Shown: positions 18,801-64,000 of the stretch, in pieces
Position numbering within the stretch: position 1 is the stretch's first letter
Layout of the letters: every line of letters begins with the position of its first letter
NCBI GenBank assembly: GCA_963965975.1
Contig: OZ014416.1
Location: 1,488,001 to 1,552,000, forward strand
Origin: Xestospongia bergquistia
Taxonomy: Eukaryota > Porifera > Demospongiae > Haplosclerida > Petrosiidae
Direction of reading: 5' to 3'
DNA length: 64,000 nucleotides
Made by a program: the position numbers and the translations under genes
The notes under the pieces: model-generated
Database searches by the model: none
What the model saw: only the letters and a program-made list of their open reading frames with translations
What the model was told of the DNA's origin: nothing

Positions 18801-20505
18801 TATACTGTATTATGTACTGTATTATATACTGTATTATGTACTGTATTATATACTGTATTGTTTACTGTATTATGTACTGTATTATATACTATATTATGTA
18901 CTGTATTATGTACTGTATTATGTACTGTATTATGTACTGTATTATATACTGTATTATATACTGTATTATGTACTGTATTATGTACTGTATTATATACTGT
19001 ATTATATACTGTATATATACTGTATTATATACTGTATTATGTACTGTATTATATACTGTATTATATACTGTATTATATACTGTATTATGTACTGTATTAT
19101 GTACTGTATTATGTACTGTATTATATACTGTATTATATACTGTATTATGTACTGTATTATGTACTGTATTATGTACTGTATTATATACTGTATTATATAC
19201 TGTATTATATACTGTATTATGTACTGTATTATATACTGTATTATATACTGTATTATGTACTGTATTATATACTGTATTATGTACTGTATTATATATGTTA
19301 AGTTGGTGAGGTTGTGTTAGGTGAATTATTTCCATGTTAGTGTTTGATGGGTTTAGATTTATTAATAACTACTGTATTATCATACAGTAGTTATTAATAT
19401 TACTATGAACGGTAGTTAATAAATTACCAGATCACCAAATCATCAATTTTTCCTTAATTGAGTGATATCGTTAAGATCTTGTACATTTTGTTACTTTTAT
19501 TAGGCACTGGTTCAATATAATCCCAATATATGGTCGGAAAAATCATTTTGTGGTGGTGTGATCATTCATCCATACCGAGTACTTACAGCTGCACACTGTA
19601 TTAACAAGAATACCAAAACATCCGAATTGTTTAATAAAGAAGATATCATTGTTAGTGTGGGCGTGTACAATCGTTCCTTAGCTAACGAGACAACACGACA
19701 GGTGTTAAGTGTTAAGAAGATTTATCAACCAGCATATCACATTGGCATACATAATGATTTAACAGTCTTGGAATTTAATGAAGAGATACAATTTAATGAA
19801 AATGTACGACCTATATGTTTACCACGTATGCTGGATACTGTACCAGATATAGGTATGTTTAAAATGGATGAATGGTGTTTAAGAATGTACCAAGTAACAA
19901 TGGACATTTGAATGGATTGATGGTTTCAAATCTATTGTTTATAGTATGTATATTGAAAATAATACTAAATATCACTTTCAGTTTCAGTATAGTATACCAC
20001 TAGTTTTAAAAGTGACATACAGTAATAAAGTAACATGAAATAGAGCATAGTCATAGTATCATGTAGTCAATAAAATGTTCTATAGGATTGTTGTTGTTGA
20101 TTTGTGTATTCTAATGACATATACCATCATATAGGAACTGTTTGTTATGTTAGCGGTTATGGCTTACTACATGAAGGTGGTCCAAATTCTGATGTTTTAA
20201 GAAAAGCAGCTGTGCCTATTGTTAATTGGATTGATTGCAAGAAGCGGTATCCCTATCTTCCTGTAAATGCATTTTGTGCAGGTTACAAAGAAGGAGGTGC
20301 TGATGCTTGTCCTAACGACAGTGGAGGACCTCTGATATGTCAACGTTCCAATAAACGATGGGTATTAATGGGTGTGGTTAGTGGAGGAGAGAATTGCGGT
20401 GATCCAGGATCTTATACTTATTATGCTAATGTTGTTCATAGTCGACGATTTGTAAGATTTCCTGATGCCAGAGATCCTTTTAAACCCCCAAGGAAGTCAC
20501 CTTGA
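15601..20505 (+). CDS. Secreted immunoglobulin-domain trypsin-like serine protease
   Basis: Ten exons (15601-15762, 15916-16081, 16144-16290, 16562-16696, 17112-17348, 17399-17523, 17573-17676, 18156-18327, 19504-19852, 20135-20505) keep frame for 655 residues. A signal peptide (KLFFLLFFGVVYG) is followed by three Ig domains: WEKDG..DTGTYHC, KGTVRC..DGVYQC, and LYIPCHA..DEGTYICKAW. Between Ig2 and Ig3 lies a furin-type site (KRTKRQS). The C-terminal part is a chymotrypsin-fold protease: linker Cys in DICGK, activation site TRIIQGT, His in LTAAHC, Asp in HNDLTVLEF, Ser in ACPNDSGGPLIC. The residue at the base of the pocket is Asp (D189), so trypsin-like specificity is expected. Oddities are Asn for Gly193 and Gly for Trp215. 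I do not know a named orthologue. The 1.2-kb intron before the His exon is mostly a 12-bp satellite. Confidence 0.85.
15797..15838. repeat. (TG)n(AG)n microsatellite
   Basis: A short TG run followed by AG units lies inside the first intron (15763-15915) of the Ig-protease gene. Confidence 0.85.
18503..19290. repeat. 12-bp minisatellite (tactgtattata), ~65 copies, with higher-order structure
   Basis: The whole stretch is built from the 12-mer tactgtattata and variants ending atg or gtt, or reading tactatattata. At 18540-18765 a six-unit, 72-bp block recurs three times; near 19079-19200 a 60-bp block recurs. Because 12 is a multiple of three and few units contain stops, long frames of 150-257 codons are open on both strands. 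It lies wholly inside the intron 18328-19503 of the Ig-protease gene. Confidence 0.95.
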
Positions 20506-28305: not shown

Positions 28306-29629
28306 TCATTCTCTTTTATCGGTTGCCCTCCTAATAGCCCAAGACAATTCATATGTTTTGGTAGCATCTTCATATAAAGACTCAATTCCATCAGATTTTC
28401 CAGACAAAATTGCTTCAATAAATATTCGATCTTCTTCAAGATAAGGATCAGCTTCAGGAAATTTTTCAACACTTTCTTGATTGCTACCACTCCGACGTAT
28501 TGTCAGGGTACATTCTGGAAAATATACATTAGTAAGAGAGATACGTAACCCGTCACACCAGATATCAATACTGGTTTCATATTTTAAATCATGTAAAAGA
28601 AGTGTGTGAGTCAATGTCCCTATACCACCAGCAGTAAACTGCCACACACACTGTGTACTACGAGGAACATCATTCTCTAAAGGTATATTAGCTTCTTGAA
28701 CAATAGATGGTAAAGATGCTAGGTAGCCTAGGTTTTGAGGAGAACTTGAAGGAGGGATGGAATATCCAGTAATGGAATCTAGGACTACTTCTCCTCCAAA
28801 GTAACGTATTAGGTCACAAAAGTGAGTAGCCTGCTCAACTATTGGTCCACCAGACTGAGTCTTATCCCACCAGAATGGCTTAGCTATGTTGGTGTATGTA
28901 CTCGCATAGCGAACATTGATGGCATTTAATGGACGACCATGTTTGGTTAATTCTTCTTTAATCCTCCTTACAGCTGGATGATAACGGAGCATATACCCCA
29001 CACTCACCAGACACCCACGTTCTTGACTTACTTTGGTCACCATGGTAACATAGTCTTTGAATTCCTCAGGAGGGAGGACCGAGATAGGTTTTTCCACAAA
29101 GACATGTACACCAGCTTGTAAGAGCCTTATCTCTAGGTCTTTACCATCAGAAAATGACCCATGACAAAATGGAGGTACTCCTAAAAAATAACATGCATCT
29201 AAATGCAATAAATATTTCAGTTGAATACTGTCAAACAAATCTTGCATAACCAGTCCCTTCCAAGAAGCCAGCCACTCCCTCAAAATTGGGAGGGTTTACT
29301 ATGCAATATTTTTTCTTAATTCTTGATTTGTATATTAAATACCATTCCCTCTTAATAACAAACAACTTACCTACAAATGCAACATCGATTTTCTTCTCCT
29401 TCAAGGCTGTAACAATTTCGCTATAAACAGTGCAGTTCTGATATAAGTGGGCGTGGCTGCCAGACAACTTTTCAGCTAGTATTCGATCTGCTCTCTCTTT
29501 CAACGGATCAACAATGGCAACTATTTTCACTACTCCTAGATTTTCTAGTCTCAAAGAGTGGTTCCAAGGGTCATTTGAACCACCAAAGTTGACAGTGCCT
29601 GCACCAACGAAGCACACGTTTAGGGCCAT
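28306..29629 (-). CDS. Gfo/Idh/MocA-family NAD(P)-dependent oxidoreductase
   Basis: Two exons (29629-29371 and 29180-28306) give 377 residues from the ATG of MALNVCFVGAGTVNFGG. The Rossmann nucleotide-binding loop is VCFVGAGTVNFGG with VAIVDP at the end of the second strand. The family hallmark is VFVEKPISV. The C-terminal alpha/beta domain includes GYMLRYHPAVRRIKEEL and GGPIVEQATHFCDLIRYFGG, where the H-x-C-D element is the usual catalytic/substrate region. Members oxidise or reduce sugars and related compounds; the substrate here cannot be inferred. Only one intron, the fewest among its larger neighbours. It is divergent from MRGBP with a very short spacer. Confidence 0.85.
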
Positions 29630-29740
29630 TTTTAAGACCACGTGTATAGCATTTACGGAGAGAAAAGGAGGACTTAAGTAAAGAGAATTAATTCCGTATA
29701 CTAAATGAGTGTAATTAACCCTTTGTTAACTGTATTAGTG
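29630..29740. promoter_or_regulatory. Divergent promoter, oxidoreductase / MRGBP
   Basis: At most 111 bp separate the two start codons (75 bp if MRGBP starts at the upstream in-frame ATG at 29705). Both promoters must overlap here. Confidence 0.5.
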
Positions 29741-41027: not shown

Positions 41028-42522
<1,495 letters not shown>

Positions 42523-43664: not shown

Positions 43665-43818
43665 CTATTGTGGTTATGAAGGTAATGGTGAATGTGCCTT
43701 CAGCATATCTCAAAAGAATACTGGATTTGCCTACTTGTGTATCACCAATGAGAAGTATTTTAAAAAGAATATCATAGCCTTTGTTCAGTCCTTTTGAGTC
43801 TGAAGCAACATTAGCCAT
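43665..43818 (-). CDS. Isolated Rab10-like first exon (alternative first exon or remnant)
   Basis: Open from the ATG at 43818 ([19 protein letters not shown]) through an intact P-loop variant GDTQVGKSS and switch I ITFITTIG, ending at a good donor (G|GTAAAG) in phase 1. That is the same position and phase as exon 1 of the Rab10-like gene 1.1 kb downstream. No further Rab exons lie between, so it is either a second promoter and first exon spliced onto Rab10-like exon 2 (acceptor at 42214), which would give a protein with a different P-loop, or a relic of a partial gene duplication. Its reading frame is undamaged, which favours use. The likeness to Rab10-like exon 1 is clear ([13 protein letters not shown] versus [13 protein letters not shown]). 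Confidence 0.7.
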
Positions 43819-44906: not shown

Positions 44907-47900
44907 TTAAGAAGTACTGCTGTGAGGTTCATCTATAATAATAATATGAGATATAAGGCAATTACAAATTAGAAAAAGTGCTACTAAATTAAAACAAGGT
45001 ATTCGTTCAAACTTATTAACTTTACTTGCATGTTTGGATAGTATTAGAGCAATAATTAAATGACACACCTGATTTTACACCAAGGAATTGGCAGATTTCA
45101 GTAGCTAGTGATTTTTTTTGTAGAGGACCCTCTATAATACTGATGATGTTGTTCCATGTAGCAGGAGTGGGTTCATTATCCAACCAGCTCTGTAACATCT
45201 TGGACATCTTGACATCATCAGGGAAACTAGAATAACACAACATCTCAATAGTGTTAGGATGCACTCCAAGTAGATCTCCCATCTGTTGCCATTTAGCAGT
45301 AATAGAAGAAAGCAACCTAAGCAGCACATGTTTCTCTGGTTTGCTAGCTATAAAGCAAAGACATTATCAATGTAATGAAATAACTACACAGACAATGCTT
45401 GAAGTAGTCTAGTATTGATAATGAGATTTTCTTCATCATACCTTTAATGTTAGACAGTGGTGATGATGGTATAAGAGAGAGATAGTTGCTTGGTGCCAGA
45501 CCTTTTTGATCTCTGTAATGTACTAACCACCATCCATCTTCTTCTGTTTCCATGGTGATGACATCAACAATGTCACCCTCTTTGATGGTAATCTCATCAT
45601 CTTTATCAGCAGTATAGGAGAACAAGACTTTAGCTTTTAACTTGTTGACCTCTTGTTGAAGTTGACCTCTTGAATCAGGCATTGATGAAAGAGGGACAGG
45701 CTTATCTAGAACTAGAAAATGAAAAAACAACTTGCACCATTATTATTGATGTTTGCATACTATTGATGTTCAATAGTCTACATTTAGTGAAAAGTCATGT
45801 TAAATCAAATTTATTACATCAGGTAGACAATAAAAAGACAACATCTTAGCTATAGGAAATCTCTCTCTATATAGTAGACATTGCAATCATAATAAATGAT
45901 AATAGGGTAGGTTGGCTTATGATCAGTTGATTTAAGAGCTAGAATATATTTGCAAGATAATATCTTGTTTAGATTGATTATACATAAAATGTCATCTATC
46001 AGGAGGCGCACAAGCAAACTATCATATAAATATATATAATCTAAAGATATATTCACCATGTAATAGTCTCCATTACCTGTTGAAATTTCATGTACATTTT
46101 CAGAAGTCGACATTACACTGTCATCAATTTCTATATAAATAAAAGTTAAAAGATACATTATCAATTCTAAATCACATAGATATTAATTACTAACAAGTCT
46201 AACATTCAGATAATTAAAAGTTATCTATCTTACCTTTATATGGTATGAGAGAAAGATAGTTGCTTGGTGCCAGACTTTCTTGATCACCATAATGTACTAA
46301 CCACCATCCATCTTCTTCTGTTTCCATGGTGATGACATCAACAATGTCACCTTCTTTGATGGTAATTTCATCATCTTCATTAGCAATGAAGGAGAAAATG
46401 ACTTTAGCTTTTAACTTGTTATGAAGTTGTCCTATTGAATGACATAATGATGACGGGGAGACAGATGTCTCAGGAACTAGAGAATAAAAGAATTTATGCT
46501 ATTGTTATTAACATTTACATGTTACTGATGTTCACTAGTCTATATTTAGAAATGTTTATTTCAAATTTATGGTGTTAGGGTCACATGTCAGACAGACAAT
46601 ATCATAGCTACAGGAAATCTTAGAAGTGGACATTGCAAGCATAATAGGGTAAGTTGATTCATGATCAGTTGATTTGAGAAGACATTAAGTTAATCTGCTG
46701 GATATGCATGTCATCTATATATTAACAATAATAAGCAACCACAAAACTACTCATAAAGACCTTAAACTACTGATGATTACATATTTATGTAAACCTTCAT
46801 GTAAAATAACTTTAAGCATCATACCATCATTAGTGGACTCAAACCAAGACCAACAAGGATGAGAACTGTTTTCTGGAGTATGTTGGATGACATTTTGTTT
46901 GCTTGAGCAAAGAAGAATCCATTTGTCTTCTTCCCAGACAGTAGCAATATGTGTGCCTTCCATTTCACATGGACAGTAAAAGGCAACTTTAGGTTGCATT
47001 TCTTTAATAATTTGTCTAGTTGTTATAGTTTCATTGATGGTATCGACCAGATCTTTCTTTACTTCAACTTGATCTTTAGAAAATTCACAGTGAATCTCAA
47101 ACACATCATGATCTTCTATGAAACTGACTTTCCCACCAACCAACTTTTTCAATGTTATGTAATTTGAATACATCTTGGAGTCAGACTCATCAAGTATCCA
47201 TAATGGCATACCATTAGGATGTGTTGTGGAGAGTAGGTGAACTATCATAGCACAAAAGAGACCAATTGGAACACCTTTTTTAAAGTAAAACAGCAAAGGA
47301 CATGAGGTAGAATTGTGTACAGGATTGACTTCTGATGGATCAATTAAAGGTAGCAATGCTGGCATGAAAAATTTGTTTTCAGGTAATTCTGTGGCAATCA
47401 AAAGGTGCTGGAATATTTTAAGCACTTCAGTGCTAAAGGATTGGAAATAAGAAGATATCTTAACACTTTTTTGAGACTTAGCAAAGACATCTTTTGAGAT
47501 AATACCATGATCAGCCATTTTCTTCACGTCCACTGCCCCTCGACCAACCTTAACTCCATTTCGTATTTTACAGACAAGTATCATCAGTTCACTGACTACT
47601 TCAATCAAACTGTGGGGGAGGACAAACACTAAATCACTCACTCCAGGGTAATATAAGATGGTGTTGAGGAGATAGAAGAACTTAAGAGCACTCTCTATTT
47701 CTTCTATATGCAAACCCAATCCTAGACCAGTAGCTTGACACTCTTGCAAGCTAAGTACTCCACAACCTTTAATGGCTTCTTGTCGTAATAAAATTTCAAA
47801 TGCATACCACCTTAATGGAATGTTAACTTTAAAAGCTTGATCCTTTAATTCAGCACGAATCTCTTTAATCACTGGATCATCAAACACACCTTCAGAAGCT

Positions 47901-50900
47901 TTACGACCATCAACTTCAGACAATATCTTTCCACTAGTGACATCATGATAAGACAGATTACCTTCAATAGATTTAAATATCTTAGCAAGCTTTTGTTCTT
48001 TCTCTTCAATGCTTTCCAACACTTCTCTATTTTTAAGTTGTTCTTCATACTTGTCACGATGGGTAGCAAGGGTAATGATTTTAAGCATTTCTGGAGGCTT
48101 GATAATGACTTGAGATAACTTGGTATCACTGATTAACTTTTGTTGTTGAGCACTAGAATTAACCATGAGTATGAGACGTTTGAGGAGAGTCTCAACAGTT
48201 GGTGAGTGACCACTGACAATGTACTCTCCATCTTCACATTGTAATACAGTAGAGGATTGACTAGAGAGATCTTCAGCTAGATTAGTAACTAACATAAGGA
48301 CTGATGCACATGGTATAAAAGCTTGTAACAACTGTTGAAACTGAATTTGTCCTCCAGAGTCAATAAAGTAAAGCCATTCTTTGTGTAGAGTAAGCTTGAT
48401 ACCCTTAGCTGAAGCTTTGTTGACAATATCAGACAACTCTCTTGTTGCACTGTCATTTACGTTTGGTAGCTGAACAGGAGGTTCCAATGATATTTGAGGA
48501 GGAGCTGTGTTACTACTGTTTGGATGTTTGGATTTTGGTTTACTGATGGTAACTTTAGAGTTCTTTGCTGTATAGTCTATATCTTCATATTCATTGTTAA
48601 TATCTTGACTTTCAAGGAGAGATCTGACTTCTTTGGCAAATTTTTCAATCATCTTTTCATCATTTACTAGTTCCCAGTGGTATTCATTCAGCTGACCATA
48701 CTGACTCATAATGAATTCTCCAATAGCAATTTGTGGAGACTCAACACAACCTGTACTGATATTACTCTCATAAGGGTGTGAGAGAATTAGACATTTGACT
48801 GATGTTTTACCAGCTCTAGCAGGACCTTGAACAACTGCTTTAGTAATACTGGTTTTAACAGATCCACTAGCTTTCATAGCATTATGAAGATTTCTTTGAT
48901 CTATACAAAGATTGCAATAACAACTTAATTCATCATAACACCTTTATTGATTTCTTACATCTACAATTATATAAGACTTACCAATTTCAGTAAATTGATT
49001 ATTTGTTTGTGAAGGTGGTATCTTTAAAGAGAATGAAAAGCTAAATAGTACTCATTACAATATACCTTTTTAAATTTAAGAGCTGCACTTGTTGGCTTTT
49101 TTAAATCAATAGAAAATGATTTCCTCTATAAACAATAAAGTTATTATCATTGTAATCATACTAATAAAAAATGTTTACCTTTCCCCGAAAAAGTTTGCCA
49201 ATATTTCGAAGAAATGATGGCTCTCTTTCCTGTAGAAAATTAAAGACATAATATCTTACATCATTAGAAATATACTACTCATACAACCACTATTGTATAC
49301 CTTTAAAACTTGTTTTGCCAATATTTGGAAAACCTTGTCAACACTAGCTTTGTCTTTTGATGATATCTCAAAAAATAGCATGTTTAGTTTCTTTGCCAAT
49401 TGTTCTCCTCTCTCTTTAGAAACTTGTCTATCAGACTCCATATCTAACTTGTTACCAACCAAGAGACATTGTACATCTGGTGAAGCATGCTAAAATTTTA
49501 TGATTAAGAAATACTTTAATTATTTTGGTGAGTAGCTACTTACTGCTGTAATATCCTGTAGCCATTTTGTTATATTATCAAATGACTCTTTACTGGTAAT
49601 ATCATATACCAATAAAATACCCTATATAGGAAAGTAAATGTGTTTGTTAATAATCTGAGGTATTCTGTACCATAGCGTCTTCATAATAGGATGTGGTAGT
49701 AGTGGCATCTATGTGTAGTATAATTTTTCGATTTTCTTCATCCAAATATACTTTCTTGGTAATCAATTCAATCTCTGAATCTATCAAACCAGACACATAA
49801 TACAATAATAATAACTCATATACTTGTAAGGGAATAAGGCGATCCATTGTTAAAGATTTGTAAAATACTTGTTTTACCACAACCACTATCACCAATTACT
49901 AGAAATTGCATATTGGTTTGAGCGACTACAGTATTCTAATAATAAAAAAAGTATCTCAAATGAATTAAACTATATTATATACATACATGATAATTTCCAA
50001 CAGCCAAGCAAATTGCTGCATCAAAAACAATTGTAAGTCCCTTTTGAGTAAGAGCTGAACACTCTAAATATTTTACTGCACCAATTTCCTTCATCATCTT
50101 AAGCCCCTATAGAAAACCATCTACATTTATATATGCAAAGTATATGTGCAGTTGGTAGCACAGCAAACTGTGGGTCTTTAATTATGATCAATCTCTTGAT
50201 TGCTTCCAACCAAAGCAAATATTTGACTAGTACTAAACTAACCACATTTGAATTTAACACTAAATTCCACAACAATACTATATTTTAAATTATATTATAT
50301 AATCATATAAACAATAAAAGGAAGTGGTTGATAACAATCTGACCTACTGGAGTTAATATGAATAAAGATCTTATATATCATCATTGAATTCAGTAATTAA
50401 CATGTAATGAGAATATATACCTCTTCATATGACACTGGCTTTTTTTTTCTTTCTTTAAGTTTCTCAATTGTGCCCATATCATCACGTAAGTCCAACTTAG
50501 TACCAACCAGAATGAAAGGAATGTTTGGACAATGATGATGAATTTCTGGGTACCACTAGAATATATAAAATTATTACTACAACTACCAACTATGTTTTAA
50601 GTACCTTCGTCCTAATATTTTCTAGTGATTCAGGTGAAACAAGTGAAAATATTAACAAGAATACATTCTGAGGAAAACCAAATTACAATTCTAATTGACA
50701 CAGTAAATATAGTAATGTTTGTTGCTAAATAGCTTTTAAATTATAATTAACTATAATCCTTAATAAAAATCATGAACTTTTAAATAGATACATATAAAAC
50801 TTTTTATATTAAAATAAATTATGATACTCACTGTTTCAGGATAAGACAAAGGTCTAAATCTATCATAATCCTCAACACCTATATAAATACATTAAACATC

Positions 50901-51395
50901 CAATTAGTCAATAAAATCATGTAGTTATAATACCTGCTGTGTCAAATAGTCCAAAAGTGTAAGGCTCATCATCAAACATTACATTCACAGCATAGGTATC
51001 AAACCTACAAATTATTATTAGTTGTATCATGTGATTTAGTGAAGTATCTGTTGATAACAATATTGAATGGTATATGGGTATGTGTGTGACATAATGACTT
51101 ACGTAGTTGGTACATACTCATGTGGAAACCTGCTTGTTGCATAACTGATCAACATATAAGTTTTACCTACAGCTCTACAAAAAAGGAACTTATTATCATT
51201 GTTTTTAAACAGTAACTACTTGTCCAACTGGAAATCTTTACTCTATTGTGTATAGTTAATTAGAATCAGTATCATAATACATAGACTACCTAACTTTATC
51301 AGTCCTCTTATAGCATATATCTGTAGAAACATCTTATATGAATATATTTATAAAACTTACCCATCACCAACAAGAACACATTTAATAGACTGCAT
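44907..51395 (-). CDS. ROCO gene A: Rac-like + Rab-like + ROC-COR + 2x SH3 + death domain
   Basis: My exon model reads 1,376 codons in consistent phase. (1) Rac-like domain, exons 51395-51361 to 50106-49987: [25 protein letters not shown]35 in YVPTTFD, G3 DTAGVEDYD (Gln61 replaced by Val), G4 [10 protein letters not shown]5 CSAL; no CAAX. (2) Rab-like domain, exons 49935-49301: [32 protein letters not shown], but the DTAGQE segment is missing ([17 protein letters not shown]). (3) Short linker exons. (4) A 692-codon exon 48900-46825: ROC P-loop [10 protein letters not shown]3 FIDSGGQ, G4-like THRD, COR ([18 protein letters not shown]). (5) SH3 exons 46476-46234 and 45711-45442 ([20 protein letters not shown]). 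(6) Death domain exon 45347-45069 ([19 protein letters not shown]). Tail DEPHSSTS. Function unknown; death and SH3 domains suggest a signalling scaffold. A model split between Rac and Rab is possible if the 51-bp intron is not spliced. Confidence 0.8.
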
Positions 51396-53330
51396 TCTGT
51401 GAAGTCCACAGGTCAAAAGTCATTCAAAAGCTTTCCAATAATCGAGAACATGTGAAATGCTGAACTAAGACATGGTAGGTGTGGCAGGTTACGTAATTAA
51501 GAATACCATTGTTTGTCAGTTTTACTATATGCTTTTAATGAACATAATTAAGTATATTTATGATGAATTCAATCATAATGAATCATTACAGTATATACTA
51601 CTAAAATGCAAGTAGTTTTTTCCATTTAAAATGATCGTTAATAGTGATTTTCCATCTTTCATCTATATAATGGTTTCATATAAGAATGCAAAACCAGACA
51701 TCAGCTCAGTTTCATGATAAAATGTAATGATAAATCAATTGAACACACAATACTATTGGAGGTACTGTGACAGTTCCAATAAATCTGCTTAGCAAGTTAT
51801 TCCGATTAGCAGCAAATTATTACCCTTCTGATTATTAACTGGTAATACTACATATACAGTCATATGAAGTGAAAGGCTATTTTACTTGATTTGTATAGTA
51901 AGAAGTGTGTGTGTGTGTGTATTTTATGGTATATGCATAGTTAATTGAGTAGTACTTAAAACATACCAACTTTGTTAAGGCAGTAATTAGTTGCAGTTTG
52001 TAGTGAGTTATTGACATTGAAAATCACTGCAAATTATTGCAAGGTGTGTTGTGTTATTTCATATAAGGATTGATTTAATTAACATGGTCACATCTGGTAA
52101 ATCCCTATATACTGTGATGTGTAATTTAATATATAGTAGTTTACTGGCCATTAGTTCAACTATATACATCAGTATGTGCTTCCTCGTATTTCAAAGGAAT
52201 AGTTAGGCTTGGAGTCATTAATAAAGAATGCATTCAAATACACAGTACTAAACACTCCCTCAAGGGTGTAGCAAATGAATTAACAGCTGCTACTACAATA
52301 TAGCTATAACTAAATCACTGAAAATTGACAAATATATGACTATGAAGTTATTAACCTATAGTGTCTGCAGATACTGAGTACAGAAAAGGTCTAAATTTGA
52401 AAGACTTGTAAATAAAGATGTATTTTATGAAACACATTTGCTAAACAGCAATTCACTACTATATAGAATTTAGATTTAGAATTTATTTATTTCAGTTACA
52501 GATCTACATCAATAAATCATGTACATAATTAATCAAATAGTGCCTAAAAATACCTACCTCAAACTCTATTTAGGCAATTATTAGTTGCAATACGTAATAA
52601 GTTATTTATGTTCATTATTGGTAGGCCAATTACCTCCTCTATCACACATGTTATGCAATCAGTGGTTGCATGTACAGATTATTCATTACAGACACTGCCT
52701 TATAAGGTTAAAAGACTATGTTACTATATATGGACAACGTTTAAAAATAGCAACCTGCCAGGTCAATTAATGAATGCCAATTAACAGTAAGTTGTAAGAA
52801 ACTCTATTTTCAAATTACTATCTTATGAAATGTTAGGTATCATAGAATTGAAAACACAATCATTTCAAAAACATTGCTGTCTCTACATCTGTTTATCTTT
52901 CCATATAGTTACTTGATATTAGTAACTGAATTAGTAATATCATTTTTAGTGGTAAAACAATTGTTTTTCAAAAATTAAAACAATACATAAACATTAAATT
53001 ATATATTTTACTCAGAAGAAATGGAACTAAGTAGAGCAATATAAAATAAATTTTTTAAAATAAAAAGAGAAGTATAATTCATCAGTCAATCATTATATTA
53101 TAATAAAGATAATATCAGTTACATAGTATCTGTAACAGATAAACAAAATATAGTAATACATCATTGTATGATATTATCTGTTATAATATACTACACTATG
53201 TACATATTTACTTAATAATTTATACTAATTAATACATTATTATTAAAGTATAGGATAGTATGTATATATGTTTTATCTACAGACAATATAGTACTAGTAC
53301 TGTAGTATCATACCTCACATGTAGTGGTAT
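51396..53330. other. Spacer between ROCO genes A and B (duplicated upstream region)
   Basis: No coding exon seen. Much of it aligns with the spacer 5' of gene B (60970-62932), for example the blocks around catggtcacatctggtaa (near 52083 and 61657) and the stretch 53100-53330 versus 62700-62932, so promoter and spacer were duplicated with the gene. It carries two copies of an ~80-bp repeat (near 51955 and 52540). Confidence 0.65.
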
Positions 53331-54014
53331 TTACTGAGTAGTACTGTCAGTAGTAGGTGCTATTAAAAAGAGATAGTAAATGTTATGTTAAACATATAAA
53401 GTATAATACATTTATGTTATTATTAATAACATAAAAGTTAATTATAAGAGACAGTTGTACAAACTATACTCCAAATAAGAGTTAACTATATTTTATGTTC
53501 TAATCCAATAAATTAGCTGACACTTACATTAGTCCATATATTATAATAAAAGTATAGTTAACTATATACCTAGTAATAATTGACTAATGTCATTAGCCAG
53601 TGATTTCTTTTGTAGAGGACCCTCTATAATACTGATGATGTTGTCCCATGTAGCAGGAGTGGGTTCATTATCCAACCAGCTCTGTAACATCTTGGACATT
53701 TTAACTTGGTTAGAAAAATTAGAATTACATAATCCCTTAATAATATCAGGATCAACTCCAAGTAGATCTCCCATCTCTTGCCACTCAGCAGTGATAGAAG
53801 AAAGAAACCTCAGCAATATATATTTCTTTGGTTTGCTAGCTGTGGATTATAAATTATCATCAATAAAATCTATACAAATCAATTAAATATTCTACATGGA
53901 GAAACGAACTATGTTTTATTATGCTACATTCAGTATAAAGTAATTATAATCAATATCCACAAAAGGTCAAGTATAACAGTAATGTTAAATTAATTAATGT
54001 CATTATTTTATTAG

Positions 54015-54055
<41 letters not shown>

Positions 54056-57000
54056 GAATTACATCTTCACTTACCATGATTAACTTCACACAAAATCCAA
54101 CAAGGATGAAAACAGTTTTGAGAAGTATTAGTATGAGACTCATATTCATCTATACAGGTAATAAGAAATATATAGCATGTCATGTTTGGGACTAAAGAGT
54201 ATGGTAGTGACCAAAACTGACACAAGACTATGTGCAATCTTCACAAATACTGATAAATAAAATTAACTTGTTTGCTTCTACTATATACATAATATCAATA
54301 AAATAACATACCTGGCTTTATTCCAAGAAAAGGGCAGACATCAAACTTAAGAGATTGGCAAATTTTAATGGCTAGGGTTTTCTTCTGTAGAGGACCCCCT
54401 ATCACACTAATGATATTGTCCCACGTCACTGGAGTAGGTTCATTGTCCAACCAGCTCTGTAACATTTTAGACATTTTGACCTTGTTAGAAAAATTAGAGA
54501 CACATAATCCCTCAATAGTATTAGGGTTAACTCCAAGTAGATCTCCTATCTCTTGCCACTCAGCAGTGACAGAAGAAAGTAATCTGAGCAGTACATGTTT
54601 CTCTGGTTTGCTACCTGTGACATAAAGTATGAAATAAAATATTAACATCACACGTACACTTATAATGATTACAATAAAATTACTATACTAGTCAACATCA
54701 ATGTACTTTGTTTCTTTCATACCTGTTGATATATCTCCCAAACATTCATCATTATCTATAGAATGTTTAATGTAAACAGTTAGTATAATAAGTATACTAT
54801 ATATACCATCATTAGTAGACTCAAACCAAGACCAACAAGGATGAGAACTGTTTTCTGGAGTATGTTGGATGACATTTTGTTTGCTTGAGCAAAGAAGAGT
54901 CCATTTGTCTTCTTCCCAGACAGTAGCAATATGTGTGCCTTCCACTTCACATGGACAGTAAAAGGCAACTTTAGGTGACATAAAGTATGAAATAAAATAT
55001 TAACATCACATGTACACTTATAATGATTTCAATAAAATTACTATACTGGACAATACTATGTTTCTTTCATACCTGTTGATATGTCTCCCAAATAGTCATC
55101 ATTATCTATAGAATGTTTAATATAAACAGTATAATATAATAAGTCTACTGCACATACCATCATTAGTGGACTCAAACCAAGACCAACAAGGATGAGAACT
55201 GTTTTCTGGAGTATGTTGGATAACATTTTGTTTACTTGAGCAAAGAAGAGTCCATTTGTCTTCTTCCCAGACAGTAGCAATATGTGTGCCTTCCACTTCA
55301 CATGGACAATAAAAGGCAACTTTAGGTTGCATTTCTTTAATAATTTGTCTACTTGTTATAGTTTCATTGATGGTATTGACTAGATCATTCTTTACTTCAA
55401 TTTGATCTTTAGAGAATTCACAGTGAATCTCAAACAAATCATGATCTTCTATGAAACTGACTTTCTCACCAACCAACTTTTTCAATGTTATGTAATTTGA
55501 ATACATCTTGGAGTCAGACTCATCAAGTATCCATAATGGCATACCATTAGGATGAGTTGTGGAGAGTAGGCAGACAATCATAGCACAAAAGAGACCAATT
55601 GGAGCACCTTTCTTAAAGTAAAACAGCAAAGGACATGAGGTAGAATTGTGTACAGGATTGACTTCTGACGGATTGATTAATGGTAGCAATGCTGGCATGA
55701 AAAATTTGTTATCAGGTATTTCTGTGGCAATCAAAAGGTGCTGGAATATTTTAATTACTTCAGTGCTAAAGGATTGGAAATAACTTGATATCTTTTCACT
55801 TTTTCGAGACTTAGCAAAGACATCTTTTGAGATGATACCGTGGTCAGCCATTTTCTTCATGTCCACTGCCCCTCGACCAACACTAACTCCATTCCGTATT
55901 TTGCAGACAAGTATCATCAGATCACTAACTACTTCAATCAAACTGTGGGGAAAAATGAATACTAAATCACTCACTCCAGGATAATATAAGATGGTGTTGA
56001 GGAGATAGAAGAACTTAAGAGCACTCTCTATTTCTTCTATATGCAAACCCAATCCTAGACCAGTAGCTTGACACTCTTCCAAGCTAAGTACTCCACAACC
56101 TTTAATGGCTTCTTGTCGTAATAGAATTTCAAATGCATACCACATTAATGGGATATTAACTTTAAATGCTTGATCCTTTAATTCAGCACGAATCTCTTTA
56201 ATCACTGGATCATCAAACACACCTTCAGAAGCTTTACGGCCATCAACTTCAGACAGTATCTTTCTACTAGTGACATCATGATAAGACAAGTTGTCTTCAA
56301 TTGATTGAAATATCTTGGCAAGCTTTTCTTCTTTCTCTTTAATAGTTTCAACTTTATCTCCACTTTTTAGTCTCTCGTCATACATATCACGATGGGTAGC
56401 AAGGGTAATGATTTTAAGCTTTTCTGGAGGCTTGATAATGACTTCAGATAACTTGGCATCATTGATCAACTGCTGCTGTTTAGCATTAGAATTAACCATG
56501 AGTATGAGACGTTTGAGGAGTGTCTCAACAGTTGGTGAGTGACCACTTACAATATATTCTCCATCTTCACATTGTAATTCAGTAGAGGATTGACTAGAGA
56601 GATCTTCAGCTAGATTAGTAACTAGCATAAGGACTGATGCACATGGTATAAAGGCTTGTAACAACTGTTGAAACTGAATCTGTCCTCCAGAGTCAATAAA
56701 GTAGAGCCATTCTTTATGTAGAGTAAGCTTGATACCCTTAGCTGAAGCTTTGTTGACAATTTCAGACAACTGTCTTGTTGCACTGTCATTTACGTTTGGT
56801 CCCTGAACAGGAGGTTCCAATGACATTTGAGGAGAGGCTGTGTTACTACTGTTTGGATGTTTGGATTTTGGTTTACTAATAATAACTTTAGATTTCTTTG
56901 TAATTGCTGTAGCTGAGCCAAGAGGTGATTTCTGGGTTTGTACTGAATAGTCTGCATCTTTACCCTCGCACATTTTGTTAACATCTTGACTTTCAATGAG

Positions 57001-60000
57001 AGATCTGACTTCATTGGCAAACTTTTCGATCATTTTTTCGTCATTAACTAGTTCCCAGTGATATTCATTCACCTGACCATACTGACTCATAGAGAATTCT
57101 CCAATAGCAATTTGTGGAGACTCAACACAACCTGTGCTGATATTACTCTCATAAGGTTGAGAGAGAATTAGACATTTGACTGATGTTTTACCAGCTCTAG
57201 CTGGACCTTGGATAACTGCTTTAGTAATACTGGTTTCAACAGATCCACCAGATTTCATAGCATTATGAAGATTTCTTTGATCTACATAAAGAATGCATAG
57301 TAATATCATAATTACATATTTAATAATTTCTTAGATCTATAATTATATAAGACTTACCAATTTCAGTAAATTGACTATTGGTTTGTGAAGGTGGTATCTT
57401 TATAGAGAATGAAAAACTAAAGAGTCTAAAGCTCATTACAATATACCTCTTTAAAATTAAGAGCTTCACTTGTTGGCTTTTGTAAATCAATAGGAAATGG
57501 TTTATTCTATAAGCAATAAAATTATTATCATTGTAATCAAACTAATTATAATAAAAAATGTTTACCTTTCCCTGAAAAAATCTACCAATATTTTGAAGAA
57601 TTGATGGTTCTATTTCCTGTAGAGAATTAAAGACATAATATCATACATCATTAGAAATATATACACTCATACAACCACTATGTATACCTTTAAAACTTGT
57701 TTTGTCAATATTTGGAAAACCTTGTCAATACTAACTCTGTCTTTTGCTGATATCTCAAAAAATGGCATCTTTAGTTTTCTAGCCAACTTCTCTCCTCTGT
57801 CTTTTGGAACTTGTCTATCAGACTCCATATCTAACTTGTTACCAACTAGCAGACATTGTACATTTGGTGAGGCATGCTAAAATTTTATGATTGAGAATAT
57901 TTATATTATTTTGCTGAGTAGCTACTTACTGTTGTGATATCCTGTAGCCATTTTGTTATGTTATCAAATGACTCTTGACTGGTAATATCATATACCAATA
58001 AAATGCCCTATATAGGAATGTAAATGTGTTTGTTAATAATCTGAGCTATTCTGTACCATAGCATCTTTATAATAGGAAGTAGTGGTAGTAGTGGTATGTA
58101 TGTGTAAATTGATTTTTCGATTTTCTTCATTCAAATACACTTTCTTGGTAATCAATTCAATCTTTGAATCTATCAAACAAAATACATAATACAATAATGA
58201 TAATTCATGTACCTGTAGGTGATCCATCATTGAAGGTTTGTAAAATACTTGTTTTACCACTACCACTATCACCAATCACTAGGAAGTGCATCAATACAGT
58301 ATTCTAAAAATAAAAGAAGTACTTAACTTAATGAATTAACTGTATTATGTATGTACATTATGATCTTTAAAAACTGAACGAACTGCTTCATCAAAAACAG
58401 TTTTAAGTCCCTTTTGAGTAAGAGCTGAACACTCTAAATACTTTACTGCACCAATTTCCTTCATCATCTTAAGACCCTATAGAAAACCAAAGTACATATA
58501 TTTACATTCATGCAAAGTATATGTGGAGTCAGTTAGCACAGTGAACTGTGGGTCTTTAATCATGATCAATCCAAGTAACTCCTTGATTGCTTTAGAACAA
58601 AGTAAAGATTTGACTAAACTAACTACATTCAAACTTAACACTAAATTCCACAACAATACTACATTTTAAATTATATTATACAATCATACACAGCAAAAAA
58701 CACGAAGTTAAAATTACCCGCAATGGTTGTATCAACTACAATACAAATGGATTATATTAACCTACATGTAATTGAATTGACACTCCTGGGTAACTTTAAC
58801 TAAAATGGATTAATGTAACTAAGTTGGTTGAAGCTACCATGTTGACTGACTGTTACTATAACTAGGTTAGGTAGTTTAACACCAAAATAACAATGTAATC
58901 TAGTTATTAAAACAAATTGGTAAAAGGGAGACAAAGGAATATTAGTTTACATAACATAGTGTTTTAGATAAATATAAGTCAAACATTCTGTTAGTTTATG
59001 ACCATGATAAACATTGTAATCAAATAAATCAGATATTAATGACTGGTGTGAAGAAACAGAAATGACATAGGTATAATAATGCACTTAAAATAGCATTTTG
59101 TCATTTCAACTGTTGTCCTTGTTACCAGAATCTCATAAGTTGATATGAGCCCAATATTGAGTTACCACAAAGCCAAAAACTGGTCTAACTTAATATGTGA
59201 AAAGCCAACTAAAAGCCAAAAGTAGTCTTTGTAGTTTATGTCAAAATAACGGAAATTATGAGGAAGAGATAAATACTATTTCAACTTAACTAACTTAGTG
59301 TCCACTTGTAGCTTCAATTGAAGCCATGATTCAACTACTATAGCAAAGTGGGAGTAAAACCAATGTGGTTGTAGATGTAACTACTTTGCTTCATGCTTAT
59401 TGAGTTACACTAGTATTGGCCTTGTAGCAACTTTGCATTGGGCTTACATCATATTGATTGTAGTAATGAAGACCTTAGTTAAAATGACAACATGCTTTTT
59501 TCAGTGTGGCTATCAAAATAAAGTACATTACATGATGAAACCAAAAAAAAAGAAGCAAGTCACCACCAATGATTTACATTAACAATATTAGTTATAACAA
59601 CCTATTTTGTTATTTATGATAACTGCAACATATGTTAGAATCAAACCTACTAAGTGTTACAGTAACCACAGTGCACGAAGTTAAAGTAACAGCAATTGTT
59701 ACATCAACTACTTATATCAGATGTTACTTTAACTATAGGTGTGGGTTATAATTACCAGTACATTTGACAGTTGCTTTAACTATTATTTTCATTGGGTTAT
59801 TTTAACCCAAGACACAGGTTACCTGAGTTGCAGGTGTTTGACCCAAAAGTTTGGGTACTTTCTACCCACTGTGTATATATAAACAATAATTGATAGTATG
59901 TAAACAATCTGACCTAACAAGATTTAATATGAATAAAAAACTTGTATCTCATCATTGAATTCAGTAATTAGTATTTAAAGGGAATATATACCTGTACATA

Positions 60001-60969
60001 TGACACTGGGCTTAATCTTTTCTCTCTAAGTTTCTCAATTGTCTCCTTATCATCACGTAAGTCCAGTTTACTACCAACCAGAATTATTGGAGTGTTTGGA
60101 CAATGGTGATTAATTTCTGGATACCACTAGCATATATAAAACTATTAATACAACTTATAACTATGTTTTAAGTACCTTTGCCCTAACATTTTCAAATGAT
60201 GAAGGTGAAACAAGTGAAAATACTAACAAGAACACATCCTGAGAAAATAAATTACAATTTTAATTGACATTGTAAATATAGTAATGTAAATAGCTTTTGA
60301 ATTATAATTATTTATAATACTTAACAAAGATCATGAATAATACATATATAAACTTTTTATATTAGAATAAATTATGATACTCACTGTTTGAGGATAAGAT
60401 AAAGGTCTTAGTCTATCATAATCCTCCTGACCTATATAAACACATCAGACATCCAATTAGTCAACAAAATCATGTAGTTATAATACCTGATGTGTCCCAT
60501 AGTCCCAACTTGACAGGTCTACCATCAACCATTATATTTACACTATAGTTATCAAACCTACAAATTATCATTAATTGTAGCATGTGATTTAGTGATTTCA
60601 GTATATGTTGATAACAATATTGAATGTATAAGTGTATGTGACATGATGACGTACACAGTTGGTATATACTCTCCTGGAAATGTCATTGTTGCATAACTCA
60701 CCAACATTCTAGTTTTATCTACAGCTCTACAAAAAAGAAACTTGTTATCTTTGTTTTTACATTGTGACTATTTGTCCAGTAGGAAGTCCATACTTTATTG
60801 TGTACAGTTAATTAGGATCAGTGCCATAATACACAAATGTAGTATGGCCTTCCTGCCAGACTGCTCATTTTATCAGTTCTCTTATAGTACATATTTATAG
60901 AAACATCTTATATGTATATATTTATAAAACATACCCATCACCGACAACAACACATTTAATAGCCAGCAT
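53331..60969 (-). CDS. ROCO gene B: Rac-like + Rab-like + ROC-COR + repeated COR tail + 2 death domains
   Basis: Paralogue of gene A. Rac-like part starts at the ATG at 60969 ([12 protein letters not shown]); the P-loop continues AVDKT, so Gly15 is Asp. Other motifs: [33 protein letters not shown] (Gln61 kept), [28 protein letters not shown] 1.5-kb intron (58.5-60.0 kb) splits it. Rab-like part: [25 protein letters not shown] (DTAGQE again missing), [20 protein letters not shown]. Main exon 57281-55158 (708 codons): [23 protein letters not shown]. After a [11 protein letters not shown] exon, the COR-tail exon ([20 protein letters not shown]) and its partner ([11 protein letters not shown]) occur a second time at 54968-54807 and ~54760, from an internal tandem duplication. 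Then death domain exon ~54615-54312, an exon [18 protein letters not shown] at ~54150, a second death domain at ~53839-53570, and tail APTTDSTTQ. No SH3. Confidence 0.8.
54009..54051. repeat. (TA)n microsatellite in gene B intron
   Basis: About 20 TA units. The equivalent tract in gene C (63622-63671) is a few units longer, while the flanks are near-identical. Confidence 0.9.
54616..55330. repeat. ~355-bp intragenic tandem duplication adding exons to gene B
   Basis: Segment 54616-54974, beginning gtgacataaagtatgaaata, is repeated with few differences at 54975 to about 55330. Each copy contains the end of the COR exon (from [11 protein letters not shown]) and the small DND..LGDIST exon with their introns. 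The join falls inside coding sequence (ctttaggtgacataaag). It left an AG in the AAA-G of the former coding sequence, which in my model now serves as the splice acceptor of the extra exon. Confidence 0.8.
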
Positions 60970-62932
60970 TCTATGAATCAGCAAGTCAAAATTCACTAAA
61001 AAGCACTAGCAGGTGTCAATTATAAGTCGTATGGGCAAATCCACGCCCGTGGCTTCGCCTACGCATTGATTGCTGCAACGAAACACGTTGTCTGCTGGAT
61101 TGTACTATTCTGAAGCAATGAACGCTTCCTTCTGGATTCACCAACACTGCTAAAAACAGTGTTATTCAACGTTTTATTAATCATACAACTTTTTTTGTCT
61201 AACAAAAACAAGAATTGAAGACCACAACATTATTAAATGAACATTATGCTATGAAAATAAACCATCAGCATAATTGTTATAAATGATCCACAAAGATTCA
61301 TTTCTGCCAAATGTTTTTCATTTATTAACTGAAGAGTATAGTTCAGGATGTCTTTGTCCGTGATGCCATCAGACCCAAATTGTAGAATGCTTAAAATAAT
61401 ATCAAAAAATCTTATGCATAATAATAAAGTAGTACCTAAACATACCACTCTCAAACTTTGTTCAGGTATTAATTATTAGTTGCAATATGTAATGAGTTAT
61501 TTATGTTGAAATTCACTGCAGAATTATTGCAAGACATGTCATATTACTTGATAAAAGGTTAGGTGTTAAAATCATTTAGAAAACATGCTATCTCTTTATT
61601 TGTCTATCTTTCTATAACTATGATATGACATTCAAAAGCAATTGATTTAATTAACACATGGTCACATCTGGTAACCCACAAACTGTGATATGTAATTTAA
61701 TATATAGTAGTTACTGGTCCATTAGTTCAACTATATACATCAGTATGTGTTTCCTCTTCTTTAATGAAATAACTAGTCTTGGGGGCATTAATAAAGAATG
61801 CAATCAATAATACTCAAAGACACAGTACTAAACACTCCCTCAAGAGTGTAAAAAATGAATTGGTAACTGCTACTACAATATTTATGTAACTATATAGTAA
61901 GATCACTGAAAATTGACAAATATATGACTATAACAAAGTCTGCAGATAGTGAGTACAGAAAAGGTCAAAATTTGAAAGATTTGTAGATAAAGATGTCTTT
62001 AGTAAGACACATTTACTAAGCAGTAATTCATTACCATAATTTCATTAGAATTTAGACTTATGATTTATTTATTTAACTTGATGTAGATCAATAAATTATA
62101 TGTACATAATTAATCAAGTAGTACCTAAAAATAACTCTCTAATCTCAAACTCCATTTAGGCAATTATTAGTTACAATGTGTAATGAGTTAGTTATGTTCA
62201 TCGTTAGTAGCATGTATGGGATTATTCATTACATACATTGCCTTATAAGGTGAAAAGACTATGTTACTATACATAGATACAGTCTTAAAATAGTAACCTG
62301 GCAGTCAATTAATGAATGTCAATTAACATTATCCAAGTCGTAAGAAATTCCCATTTTCAAATTACTATCTGATGAAATGTTAGGTGTCATACAATCACAA
62401 ATGAAATCATTTCAAAAACAATGCTGTCTATGTACCTGTTTATATTTCTATATACTTACTTGATATTAGTAAGTAATGAAATAAACTAGTTCAACTGACA
62501 GTTTAAGATGTGGTAATTATACAATAGATATACAAGAATAATCATATAACCTTCACATGTTATATAAATTATAAACATAATATTAAGTTTTTTTAATGAT
62601 AAAAAATCTTGTTCAAAAATTTAAACAATCCATAAACATATATAGATAATACATTTCACTTAAAATAATGGATCTAAGTAGAACAACATAAAAATAAATT
62701 TTAAAAAATGATAATATCAGTTATATAGTATTTGTAACAGATAAACAAAATATAGTAATACATCATTGTATGATATTATCTGTTACAATATACTACACTA
62801 TGTACATATTTAATTAATAATTTATACTAATTAATACATTATTATTAAAGTATAGGATAGTATGTATATATGTTTTATCTACAGACCATATAGTACTAGT
62901 ACTGTAGTATCATACCTCATATGTAGTGGTAT
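60970..62932. other. Spacer between ROCO genes B and C
   Basis: Mostly homologous to the spacer 5' of gene A. The part 61020-61430 has no counterpart there that I can see. It includes a GC-richer patch (61030-61160) and a minus-strand open stretch reading FDIILSILQFGSDGITDKDI at 61233-61430 that could be an exon remnant. Two ~80-bp repeat copies lie near 61430 and 62118. Confidence 0.55.
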
Positions 62933-63618
62933 TTACTGAGTAGTACTGTCAGTAGTAGGTGCTATTAAAAAGAGATAGTAAGTGTTATGTTAAACATATT
63001 AAGTATAATACATTTATGTCATTAATTAGATTTGATTATTAATAACATTAAGAGACGCTTGTACAAACTATATTCCAAATAAGAGTTAGCTATACTTTAT
63101 GTCCTAATCCAATAAATTAGCTGACACTTACATTAGTTCATGTATTATAATAAAAGTATAGATAGCCATATACCTAGTAGTAATTGACTAATGTCATTAG
63201 CAAGTGATTTCTTTTGTAAAGGACCCTCTATAACACTGATGATGTTGTCCCATGTAGCAGGAGTGGGTTCATTATCCAACCAGCTCTGTAACATCTTGGA
63301 CATTTTAACTTGGTTAGAAAAATTAGAATCACATAATCCCTTAATAATATCAGGATCAACTCCAAGTAGATCTCCCATCTCTTGCCACTCAGCAGTGATA
63401 GAAGAAAGAAACCTCAGCAATATATATTTCTTTGGTTTGCTAGCTGTGGATTATAAATTATCATCAATAAAATCTATACAAATCAATTAAATATTCTACA
63501 TGGAGAAACGAACTATGTTTTATTATGCTACATTCAGTATAAAGTAATTATAATCAATATCCACAAAAGGTCAAGTATAACAGTAATGTTAAATTAATTA
63601 ATGTCATTATTTTATTAG

Positions 63619-63673
<55 letters not shown>

Positions 63674-64000
63674 GAATTACATCTTCACTTACCATGATTA
63701 ACTTCACACAAAATCCAACAAGGATGAAAACAGTTTTGAGAAGTATTAGTATGAGACTCATATTCATCTATACAGGTAATAAGAAATATATAGCATGTCA
63801 TGTATGGGACTAAAGAGTATGGTAGTGACCAAAACTGACACAAGATTATGTGCAATCTTCACAAATACTGATAAATAAAATTAACTTGTTTGCTTCTACT
63901 ATATACATAATACCAATAAAATAACATACCTGGCTTTATTCCAAGAAAAGGACAGACATCAAACTTAAGAGATTGGCAAATTTCAGTGGCTAGGGTTTTC
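62933..64000 (-). CDS. ROCO gene C, 3' part only (two death-domain exons), cut by window end
   Basis: Same exon order as the 3' end of gene B. From the right edge: end of a death-domain exon ([17 protein letters not shown], running off at 64000), exon [18 protein letters not shown] at about 63680-63757, second death domain at about 63442-63172 ([29 protein letters not shown]), and tail exon 62961-62933 (APTTDSTTQ, stop). Sequence is nearly identical to B over introns as well as exons, so the duplication is recent. Whether C has the Rac, Rab and ROC-COR parts lies outside the window. Confidence 0.8.
63622..63671. repeat. (TA)n microsatellite in gene C intron
   Basis: Longer allele-like counterpart of the TA tract at 54009-54051 in gene B, in the same intron position. 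Confidence 0.9.

Follow-up and report, generated by a model that had tools for sequence, protein, structure and literature searches.

The DNA analysed here (the window) is a stretch of 64,000 nucleotides (nt) from the sponge Xestospongia bergquistia, positions 1488001-1552000 of contig OZ014416.1, called C6 below. Coordinates are those of the window; past 64000 they run on into the flanking contig, and the contig position is the window position plus 1488000. On the minus strand lie two genes, A and B, which an initial annotation had read as a Rac-like GTPase, a Rab-like GTPase, a ROC-COR GTPase and then interaction and death modules in one phase-consistent exon model, with a third copy at the window edge. 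Modelling confirmed the order, strand and phases. Searches with the exons through the window and its flanks showed that A and B belong to a tandem array with 15 genes of the ROCO family (A to O, about 44.9 to 201.5 kb, all on the minus strand). These genes have a conserved ROC-COR core, an exchangeable head at the N-terminus and, for the most part, an exchangeable SH3/death tail at the C-terminus.

The exon model of gene A (44907..51395) has 20 exons and 1376 amino acids in the order Rac, Rab, linker, ROC-COR, SH3, SH3, death; every intron is GT-AG, there are zero in-frame stops and the stop lies at 44907. Exons 1-7 make up the Rac-like head (49987..51395), which has Val at the Q61 position and no CAAX box, and exons 8-11 the Rab-like head (49301..49935), where the P-loop and NKLD are retained and the DTAGQ of switch II is gone; both heads were assigned by Pfam, exon model and motif alignment. 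Three linker exons follow (48982..49229, exon model), the second being homologous by alignment to the C-terminal exon of a stand-alone Rab gene minus its GCC-stop. The ROC-COR core is a single exon (46825..48900), recognised by fold and G motifs with no Pfam match to Roc or COR. The tail consists of two SH3 exons (46234..46476 from Pfam and exon model, 45442..45711 from exon search and exon model) and a death-domain exon (45069..45347, from a weak Pfam match and profile-profile comparison), all in phase 1-1, and the modelled final exon including the stop (44907..44932).

Gene B (53331..60969, running from 60969 to its stop at 53331) was modelled with 22 exons in the order Rac, Rab, linker, ROC-COR, a repeated C-terminal COR piece, death, death. 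Its Rac-like head (58357..60969) has Asp for Gly15 in the P-loop and its Rab-like head (57688..58303) has lost the switch II motif, both by exon model and motif alignment. The core exon (55158..57281) was assigned by open frame, exon model and G motifs; the aligner set a 48-nt intron in it, which was ignored as the frame is open there, and the core is counted as one exon. The duplicated COR end forms a separate phase 1-1 exon (54807..54968, exon search and exon model) and is followed by two death exons (54312..54614 and 53570..53839, exon model and profile-profile comparison). All introns 3' of the ROC-COR exon are in phase 1 in both A and B, so that the tail modules can shuffle without breaking the frame. 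One Rac-head intron measures 1515 nt in B against 314 nt in A, and the extra sequence of about 1.2 kb at 58.7-59.9 kb is likely an inserted element. For the third copy, gene C, the head, the core and two death exons were all located in the window edge and flanking contig. Death exon 2 lies at 63178..63444, the end of death exon 1 at 63934..64000 (extending to 64230), both from exon search and profile-profile comparison, and the head starts at C6 1557119. With the 394-amino-acid head of A as query, five true regions scored 587-1670 (A itself 1670), and the scores of 20 unrelated windows of 4.2 kb lay between -162 and -63.

Genes A-H carry a Rac and then a Rab head, I and J two Rab heads, and K-O Src-type heads made up of SH3, SH2 and tyrosine kinase. 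In I, the second Rab has an open frame only if the aligner charges less for introns, and the first Rab of J was only partly resolved. Death exons are found in the tails of 12 of the 15 genes, and the tails of A, L, M, N and O contain SH3 exons, in both cases assigned by position. The frame is open from head to core in nine genes (A, B, C, E, G, H, K, L and N, with provisional first exons in the last three); it is also open in F, where the first exon has no ATG, and in I depending on settings. Twelve of the 15 cores have an open frame. A sixteenth close copy of the core (78%) lies at C6:1909308. Further we observed a Rab-Rab-linker piece with no adjoining core near 122-126 kb (C6 1610-1614 kb), a fragmentary COR/SH3/death copy at 151-154 kb (C6 1639-1642 kb), a core fragment at C6:1641605, and two fragmentary Src-type copies at 177.9-181.1 and 192.1-195.3 kb, where the kinase exons are split across frames. 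Ten of the 13 best tyrosine-kinase matches of the genome are inside the array. Scoring of the best candidates genome-wide gave at least 146 COR-A matches, among which the array is too divergent to appear, and at least 150 death matches.

The Pfam search of gene A returned Ras in the Rac part (E-value 1.7e-43), Ras in the Rab part (E 1.4e-36) and SH3 (E 4.7e-10). Neither Roc (PF08477) nor COR-A (PF16095) was matched by Pfam in the ROC-COR exon of A, and no NACHT or NB-ARC ATPase was matched by Pfam in this core. A sequence-profile search of the PDB reached at best E 0.13 (LRRK1) and 0.095 (the P-loop of a Rab). With no Pfam match and so weak a PDB profile, identification by Pfam alone was dropped and fold comparison was needed; it gave a Roc G domain directly followed by COR. 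The G1 and G3 motifs GxxxxGKT and DSGGQ are present in 15 of 15 cores, and ATHRD in 12, the exact string being absent from F, J and O. The ROC-COR assignment of the initial annotation was confirmed by fold, and from the modelled fold the core of the array is almost certainly that of a ROCO protein.

In the tail, Death gave a weak match under the cut-off on the death exon of A (E 0.041) and was supported by profile-profile comparison. The best single-copy score for Death (PF00531) was 19.0 bits with a cut-off of 22.6, and Death was the best family for four array copies of that type. For the J/K-type segment no Pfam match was found. As the structure model of the death exon was too weak for a fold search, we used profile-profile comparison, which matched the tail to sponge Death domains at 97.7% over 76 columns and gave 0.3% and 0.1% for two unrelated controls.

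Each array gene very probably encodes one polypeptide, as predicted from its exons. The Rac-to-Rab intron measures 51, 53, 123, 50, 123, 46, 43 and 43 nt in A-H, respectively, and the introns between Rab and ROC are 94 nt or shorter in all eight copies, which leaves no room for the end of one gene and the start of another. The 14 head intron phases are identical in A, B, C, E and F (five of the eight Rac-Rab copies, where for B, C and F the aligner put an additional gap into the ROC exon), those of G and H differ solely at the Rac-Rab junction, and D is damaged. One could instead picture a Rac gene next to a Rab/ROC-COR gene, joined in appearance, since in A and B the Rac frame, if read on without splicing, runs into a stop a short way past the donor. 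However, this frame ends with no prenylation box in the seven copies read (D left out), and in C, F, G and H the first Rab exon has no ATG upstream of the P-loop. In the Src copies the join lies within an exon: in K, L, N and O (four of five) the kinase exon runs stop-free past the usual kinase end via SSQGNEL-type repeats into the linker FTEI and a phase-1 donor, and the intron to the core is 212, 259, 202 and 166 nt, respectively. Rac and ROC-COR also stand in a single predicted chain in the sponge Dysidea avara (P0214, see below). Given the junctions of 43-123 nt we rejected the arrangement of separate genes, which is extremely improbable, and the single polypeptide proposed in the initial annotation gains support from all of these points.

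The initial annotation had counted three GTPase domains. Because of motif loss in the heads this is better described as one intact-looking Roc and two degenerate small GTPases. With Rac residue numbers, which we take to follow Rac1, the changes among the counted motif residues are Q61V in A; G15D in B; G15D and D118H in C; G12P, Q61M and K116Q in D; G15D, T17A, T35R and D118H in E; G15D and T17A in F; K116Q and a switch II deletion in G; and K116Q in H. Several copies have more changes, at positions 59 and 115. A GTP-site residue is hence altered in eight of eight Rac heads by motif alignment (in half of them Gly15 to Asp), and none has the intact site and CAAX box of a functional Rac. In A-H, each of the seven Rab heads that can be read (the one of D is damaged) has lost the DTAGQ of switch II and lacks the C-terminal cysteines of a functional Rab; the P-loop and NKLD are kept.

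An intact counterpart lies beside the array. The stand-alone Rab gene at 41031..42522 on the minus strand, identified by sequence reading and alignment, has five exons, intact motifs and the end KSKGCC-stop, and its inner exon boundaries match those of the fused Rab heads. A second Rab-type first exon with its own ATG and P-loop was read at 43665..43818 on the same strand and is possibly an alternative first exon of this gene. The last exon of the stand-alone Rab (22 protein letters) is homologous to the linker exon of the fusions (18 letters in C, for example). Since this exon matches and the inner boundaries are shared, the fused Rab looks like a Rab gene of the stand-alone type with its prenylation end erased.

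The Src-type heads give a similar picture. In the fused kinases of L and O, NFG replaces DFG, and the glycine loop is lost in O and altered in L; in K, M and N the third glycine of this loop is replaced. Among the five full-length stand-alone kinases of the locus, J1, J2, O2 and O3 are canonical. The sequence MGC, which we take to be a myristoylation start, precedes both the stand-alone O2 (207474) and the fragment near 181 kb; in K, M and N other letters stand in its place. The two fragmentary copies (178-181 and 192-195 kb) were left out of every kinase comparison. Judged from these sequences, the heads look like captured and disarmed copies of ordinary signalling proteins that lack membrane anchors and, in part, active sites. 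The initial annotation suggested that the proteins could couple small-GTPase-like sensing to death-domain signalling, with sponge innate immunity and allorecognition as examples. Such sensing by a working GTPase is unlikely for most heads, as their nucleotide-binding motifs are degenerate, and on this motif loss we rejected it for them; sensing by a bait or decoy fits better.

To compare rates we calculated the ratio of nonsynonymous to synonymous change (dN/dS) for 21 pairs of seven copies; D was left out here and from the Rac and Rab trees because of its damaged Rab exons. The median was 0.83 for Rac, 0.66 for the linker, 0.47 for Rab, 0.35 for Roc and 0.26 for COR, the Rac heads thus evolving fastest. 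Excess amino-acid change in Rac was seen for C-E (p 0.014) and B-E (p 0.040), with 0.075 for B-C (p-values uncorrected over 21 pairs); for positive selection on the Rac heads this is suggestive only. Close pairs of fused kinases gave 0.54-0.96 versus 0.26 for the stand-alone pair J2-O2 (J3 was left out of this set).

The trees of heads and cores disagree (support in brackets). The Rac and Rab heads of F group with G and H (1.00 and 0.999) and its core with B (0.994), while the kinases of L and O both group with the stand-alone O3 (1.00), the core of L with those of A-F (1.00) and the core of O with K, M and N (1.00). We conclude from F and from L and O that heads have moved between cores. The kinases of K, M and N are placed with J2 and O2, and as L and O go with O3, the Src heads have two or more kinase lineages of the locus as their source, through either capture or conversion.

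Among the relatives listed from other genomes, one that is close in layout is P0214, a predicted protein of 1004 amino acids from the keratose sponge Dysidea avara. It has a Rac-like head with no CAAX box (Ras, E 4.8e-42), followed by a core whose residues 195-898 match that of the array (E 4e-53 in a search of 235 proteins). Its COR-A match is above the cut-off, and those of the core relatives P0093 and P0002 are below it. Unlike the array genes it has no Rab head, no SH3 was found in it, and its C-terminus was rejected as a death domain, the profile-profile comparison with Death giving 4.5-5.2%. The initial annotation knew of no described protein with Rac and Rab N-terminal to ROC-COR; P0214 already has the Rac part of this arrangement, and the Rab head is not found in it. 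Of the 120 core relatives listed, the 12 that carry an organism name are all from sponges. Eight of the 120 (P0039, P0046, P0051, P0065, P0068, P0071, P0073 and P0075, with open frames of about 1700-1900 amino acids) combine a related core with PF05729, which we take to be NACHT, and it is possible that they represent hybrids of ROCO proteins and nucleotide-binding leucine-rich repeat receptors (NLRs) in sponges.

Elsewhere in the X. bergquistia genome, at C5:7555822-7600590 on the plus strand, Rab-like exons with DTAG precede a related core (53%, locus L037), the last of them about 1 kb before it. Exons of the switch II type occur seven times over these 45 kb in steps of about 7 kb, which suggests that another array with heads may be present. 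Ras-family exons also run in tandem at C9:3041820-3063319 and C5:2506386-2523984, and three long open frames at C8:7277719-7298911, all of which match Roc, COR-A and kinase, resemble ROCO kinases. Two predicted proteins of Macrostomum lignano, P0121 and P0122, have several Rho-type GTPase matches, one of them with PF00656, presumably caspase, and the other named CASPASE_P10; these could be merged gene models. Within the window itself we noted a long minisatellite at 18467-19368 with open frames in several frames on both strands, and, by eye, exons resembling a serine protease of the trypsin type and an oxidoreductase that binds dinucleotides, at 19504-20505 and 28306-29725.

DAPK1 is a calmodulin-regulated Ser/Thr kinase with ankyrin repeats. 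ROCO proteins with a death domain make up the DAPK group, with kinase, ROC-COR and death and no leucine-rich repeats (LRRs) (PMC6337361). As in this group, the array has a ROC-COR core, C-terminal death domains, no LRR that we found, and, for K-O, a kinase N-terminal to the core; it differs in its heads (Rac and Rab, two Rabs, or Src-type SH3, SH2 and tyrosine kinase), its SH3 tails and its 15 genes. K, L and N match the DAPK outline of kinase head and death tail, but their kinase is of Src type with SH3-SH2, and the array as a whole is not DAPK because A-J have no kinase head. A sea anemone gene, Novel Gene 3, combines a protein kinase (tyrosine or general model), Roc/COR, SH3, death and TIR in one predicted protein (PMC5094078), so the layout of kinase, ROC-COR, SH3 and death is not new in itself. 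Novel Gene 3 differs from the array by its TIR, and its available description mentions no Rac or Rab head and no head-swapping array. Brown algae have an expanded family of LRR-ROC-COR proteins, candidate immune receptors diversified by exon shuffling (PMC11378527); like the array this is an expanded ROCO family, and the immune role is proposed there too, but it is in LRR exons that its members vary, and GTPase, Src and death modules go unnamed in the abstract. In the available text of a paper on Dysidea NLRs COR occurs once, in the abbreviation list (PMC12909245), and AP-GTPase/COR in conflict systems is discussed in PMC8195603. Searches of open-access (PMC) papers, subscription papers and preprints being outside their range, showed no Rac-Rab-ROC-COR protein and no integrated-decoy ROCO in sponges among the titles, abstracts and passages seen. 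What is new, as far as these searches show, is a head of Rac+Rab or Rab+Rab, the origin of the Src heads in genes next to them and the shuffling of heads and cores.

A receptor with an integrated decoy predicts degenerate and unanchored copies of host proteins, an intact-looking nucleoside triphosphate (NTP) switch, death tails, intact parents nearby, shuffling and faster evolution of the heads, and this is the pattern seen in the array. For Rab and Src we find what marks an integrated decoy, a degenerate copy of a host protein together with intact paralogues. From this analysis the chances are about even that the array genes are immune-type ROCO receptors with integrated bait domains that would work like the integrated decoys of plant NLRs. 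The disarmed head would imitate host proteins that microbes commonly bind or modify; when it is itself bound or modified the ROC-COR switch would change, the core might dimerise or oligomerise, and the clustered death domains would signal cell death or defence. That a touched head activates ROC-COR and that death domains cluster are steps we infer, as are expression, nucleotide state, bait function and signal output. The plant receptors (PMC11781737) likewise combine an NTP switch with a degenerate version of something that a pathogen might target, intact versions of which the host retains, and they too have variable modules and an expected cell-death output. In contrast to these, the switch of the array is ROC-COR and not a STAND, NB-ARC or NACHT ATPase, no LRR was found, the genome is that of an animal and the bait role is our proposal. 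The receptor proposal for algal ROCO proteins makes the bait reading more plausible, and so do mammals, in which the pyrin and NOD/NLR pathways convert attack on Rho GTPases into immune signalling (PMC11781737, PMC8084149). The bait reading of the array similarly leads from an attacked Rho-family GTPase to an immune or cell-death signal, but in mammals the GTPase is a separate monitored protein and in the array a Rac copy is built in. That the array is an animal counterpart of plant integrated decoys on a ROCO scaffold, in which one locus repeatedly captures Rac, Rab and Src as disarmed, unanchored baits, shuffles them and joins them to death or SH3 tails beside the intact originals, we put forward tentatively, as a little short of an even bet.

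The retained P-loop and NKLD of the Rab heads, and dN/dS values below 1 (0.47 in Rab, 0.54-0.96 in close fused kinase pairs), which imply that heads are still constrained, would also suit regulatory scaffolds. The heads would then be built-in regulators that bind the Rac, Rab or Src partners present in the cell (exchange factors, guanine nucleotide dissociation inhibitor (GDI), effectors, phosphotyrosine proteins) and place or gate ROC-COR in ordinary signalling, and the SH2/SH3 modules of K-O and the SH3 tails do suggest partner binding. We regard this as possible but rather unlikely, since tandem expansion, swapping of heads and repeated loss of active sites in varied combinations exceed what a housekeeping scaffold needs. 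A multigene tandem array with modular variation and death-domain tails further recalls allorecognition, where variation in heads and tails among individuals would give identity and a mismatch would lead to death signalling; yet the domains found imitate intracellular signalling proteins and not surface molecules, and we consider self/non-self receptors very improbable.

Several observations weigh against integrated baits. Some heads are damaged only very slightly: among the counted motif residues the Rac of A differs at 61 alone and that of H mainly at G4, and the kinases of K and N retain the lysine, HRD and DFG, their differences lying in the glycine loop. The stand-alone J3 keeps its motifs and has an odd activation segment, and the two fragmentary kinase copies, too, have an altered glycine loop (GAGQFNEV). 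The exon search found no death exon in D or H and a partial one in G, and the structure model of the death exon is of low confidence (predicted local distance difference test, pLDDT, 60). Among 115 relatives of the Rac-Rab head the core was found strongly only in P0214 and weakly and in pieces in P0211. None of the 120 matches listed (of 2862) for the Src head has the array core, and we rejected Src-head fusions in other organisms on this count. Just two of the 21 Rac pairs have p <0.05 for excess change, and A-F (0.037) and F-H (0.034) go the opposite way. A Rac dN/dS near 0.8 is also expected from decay, and the degeneration could be relaxed constraint. Together with the interrupted frames of D, J, M and O and the core fragment at C6:1641605, such a rate would agree with evolutionary debris, in which a recombining array keeps capturing neighbouring genes and the heads drift under weak constraint with little function. 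But the nine open head-to-core frames, the 12 open cores with dN/dS of 0.26-0.35 and the similar Rac-ROC-COR protein of Dysidea avara make debris improbable.

If the heads are indeed baits, an early-branching lineage of animals would have evolved integrated decoys with ROCO as the scaffold, and the host pathways under microbial attack (Rac, Rab and Src) could be read from the heads. The policing of symbionts and pathogens in animals without adaptive immunity would then be directly testable, gene by gene, and the ROCO proteins, mostly known via LRRK2 and Parkinson's disease, would be given a role as receptors whose inputs and outputs can be seen. Should there be no bait function, disarmed captured copies beside their intact parents are still a natural experiment in the building of a multidomain switch.

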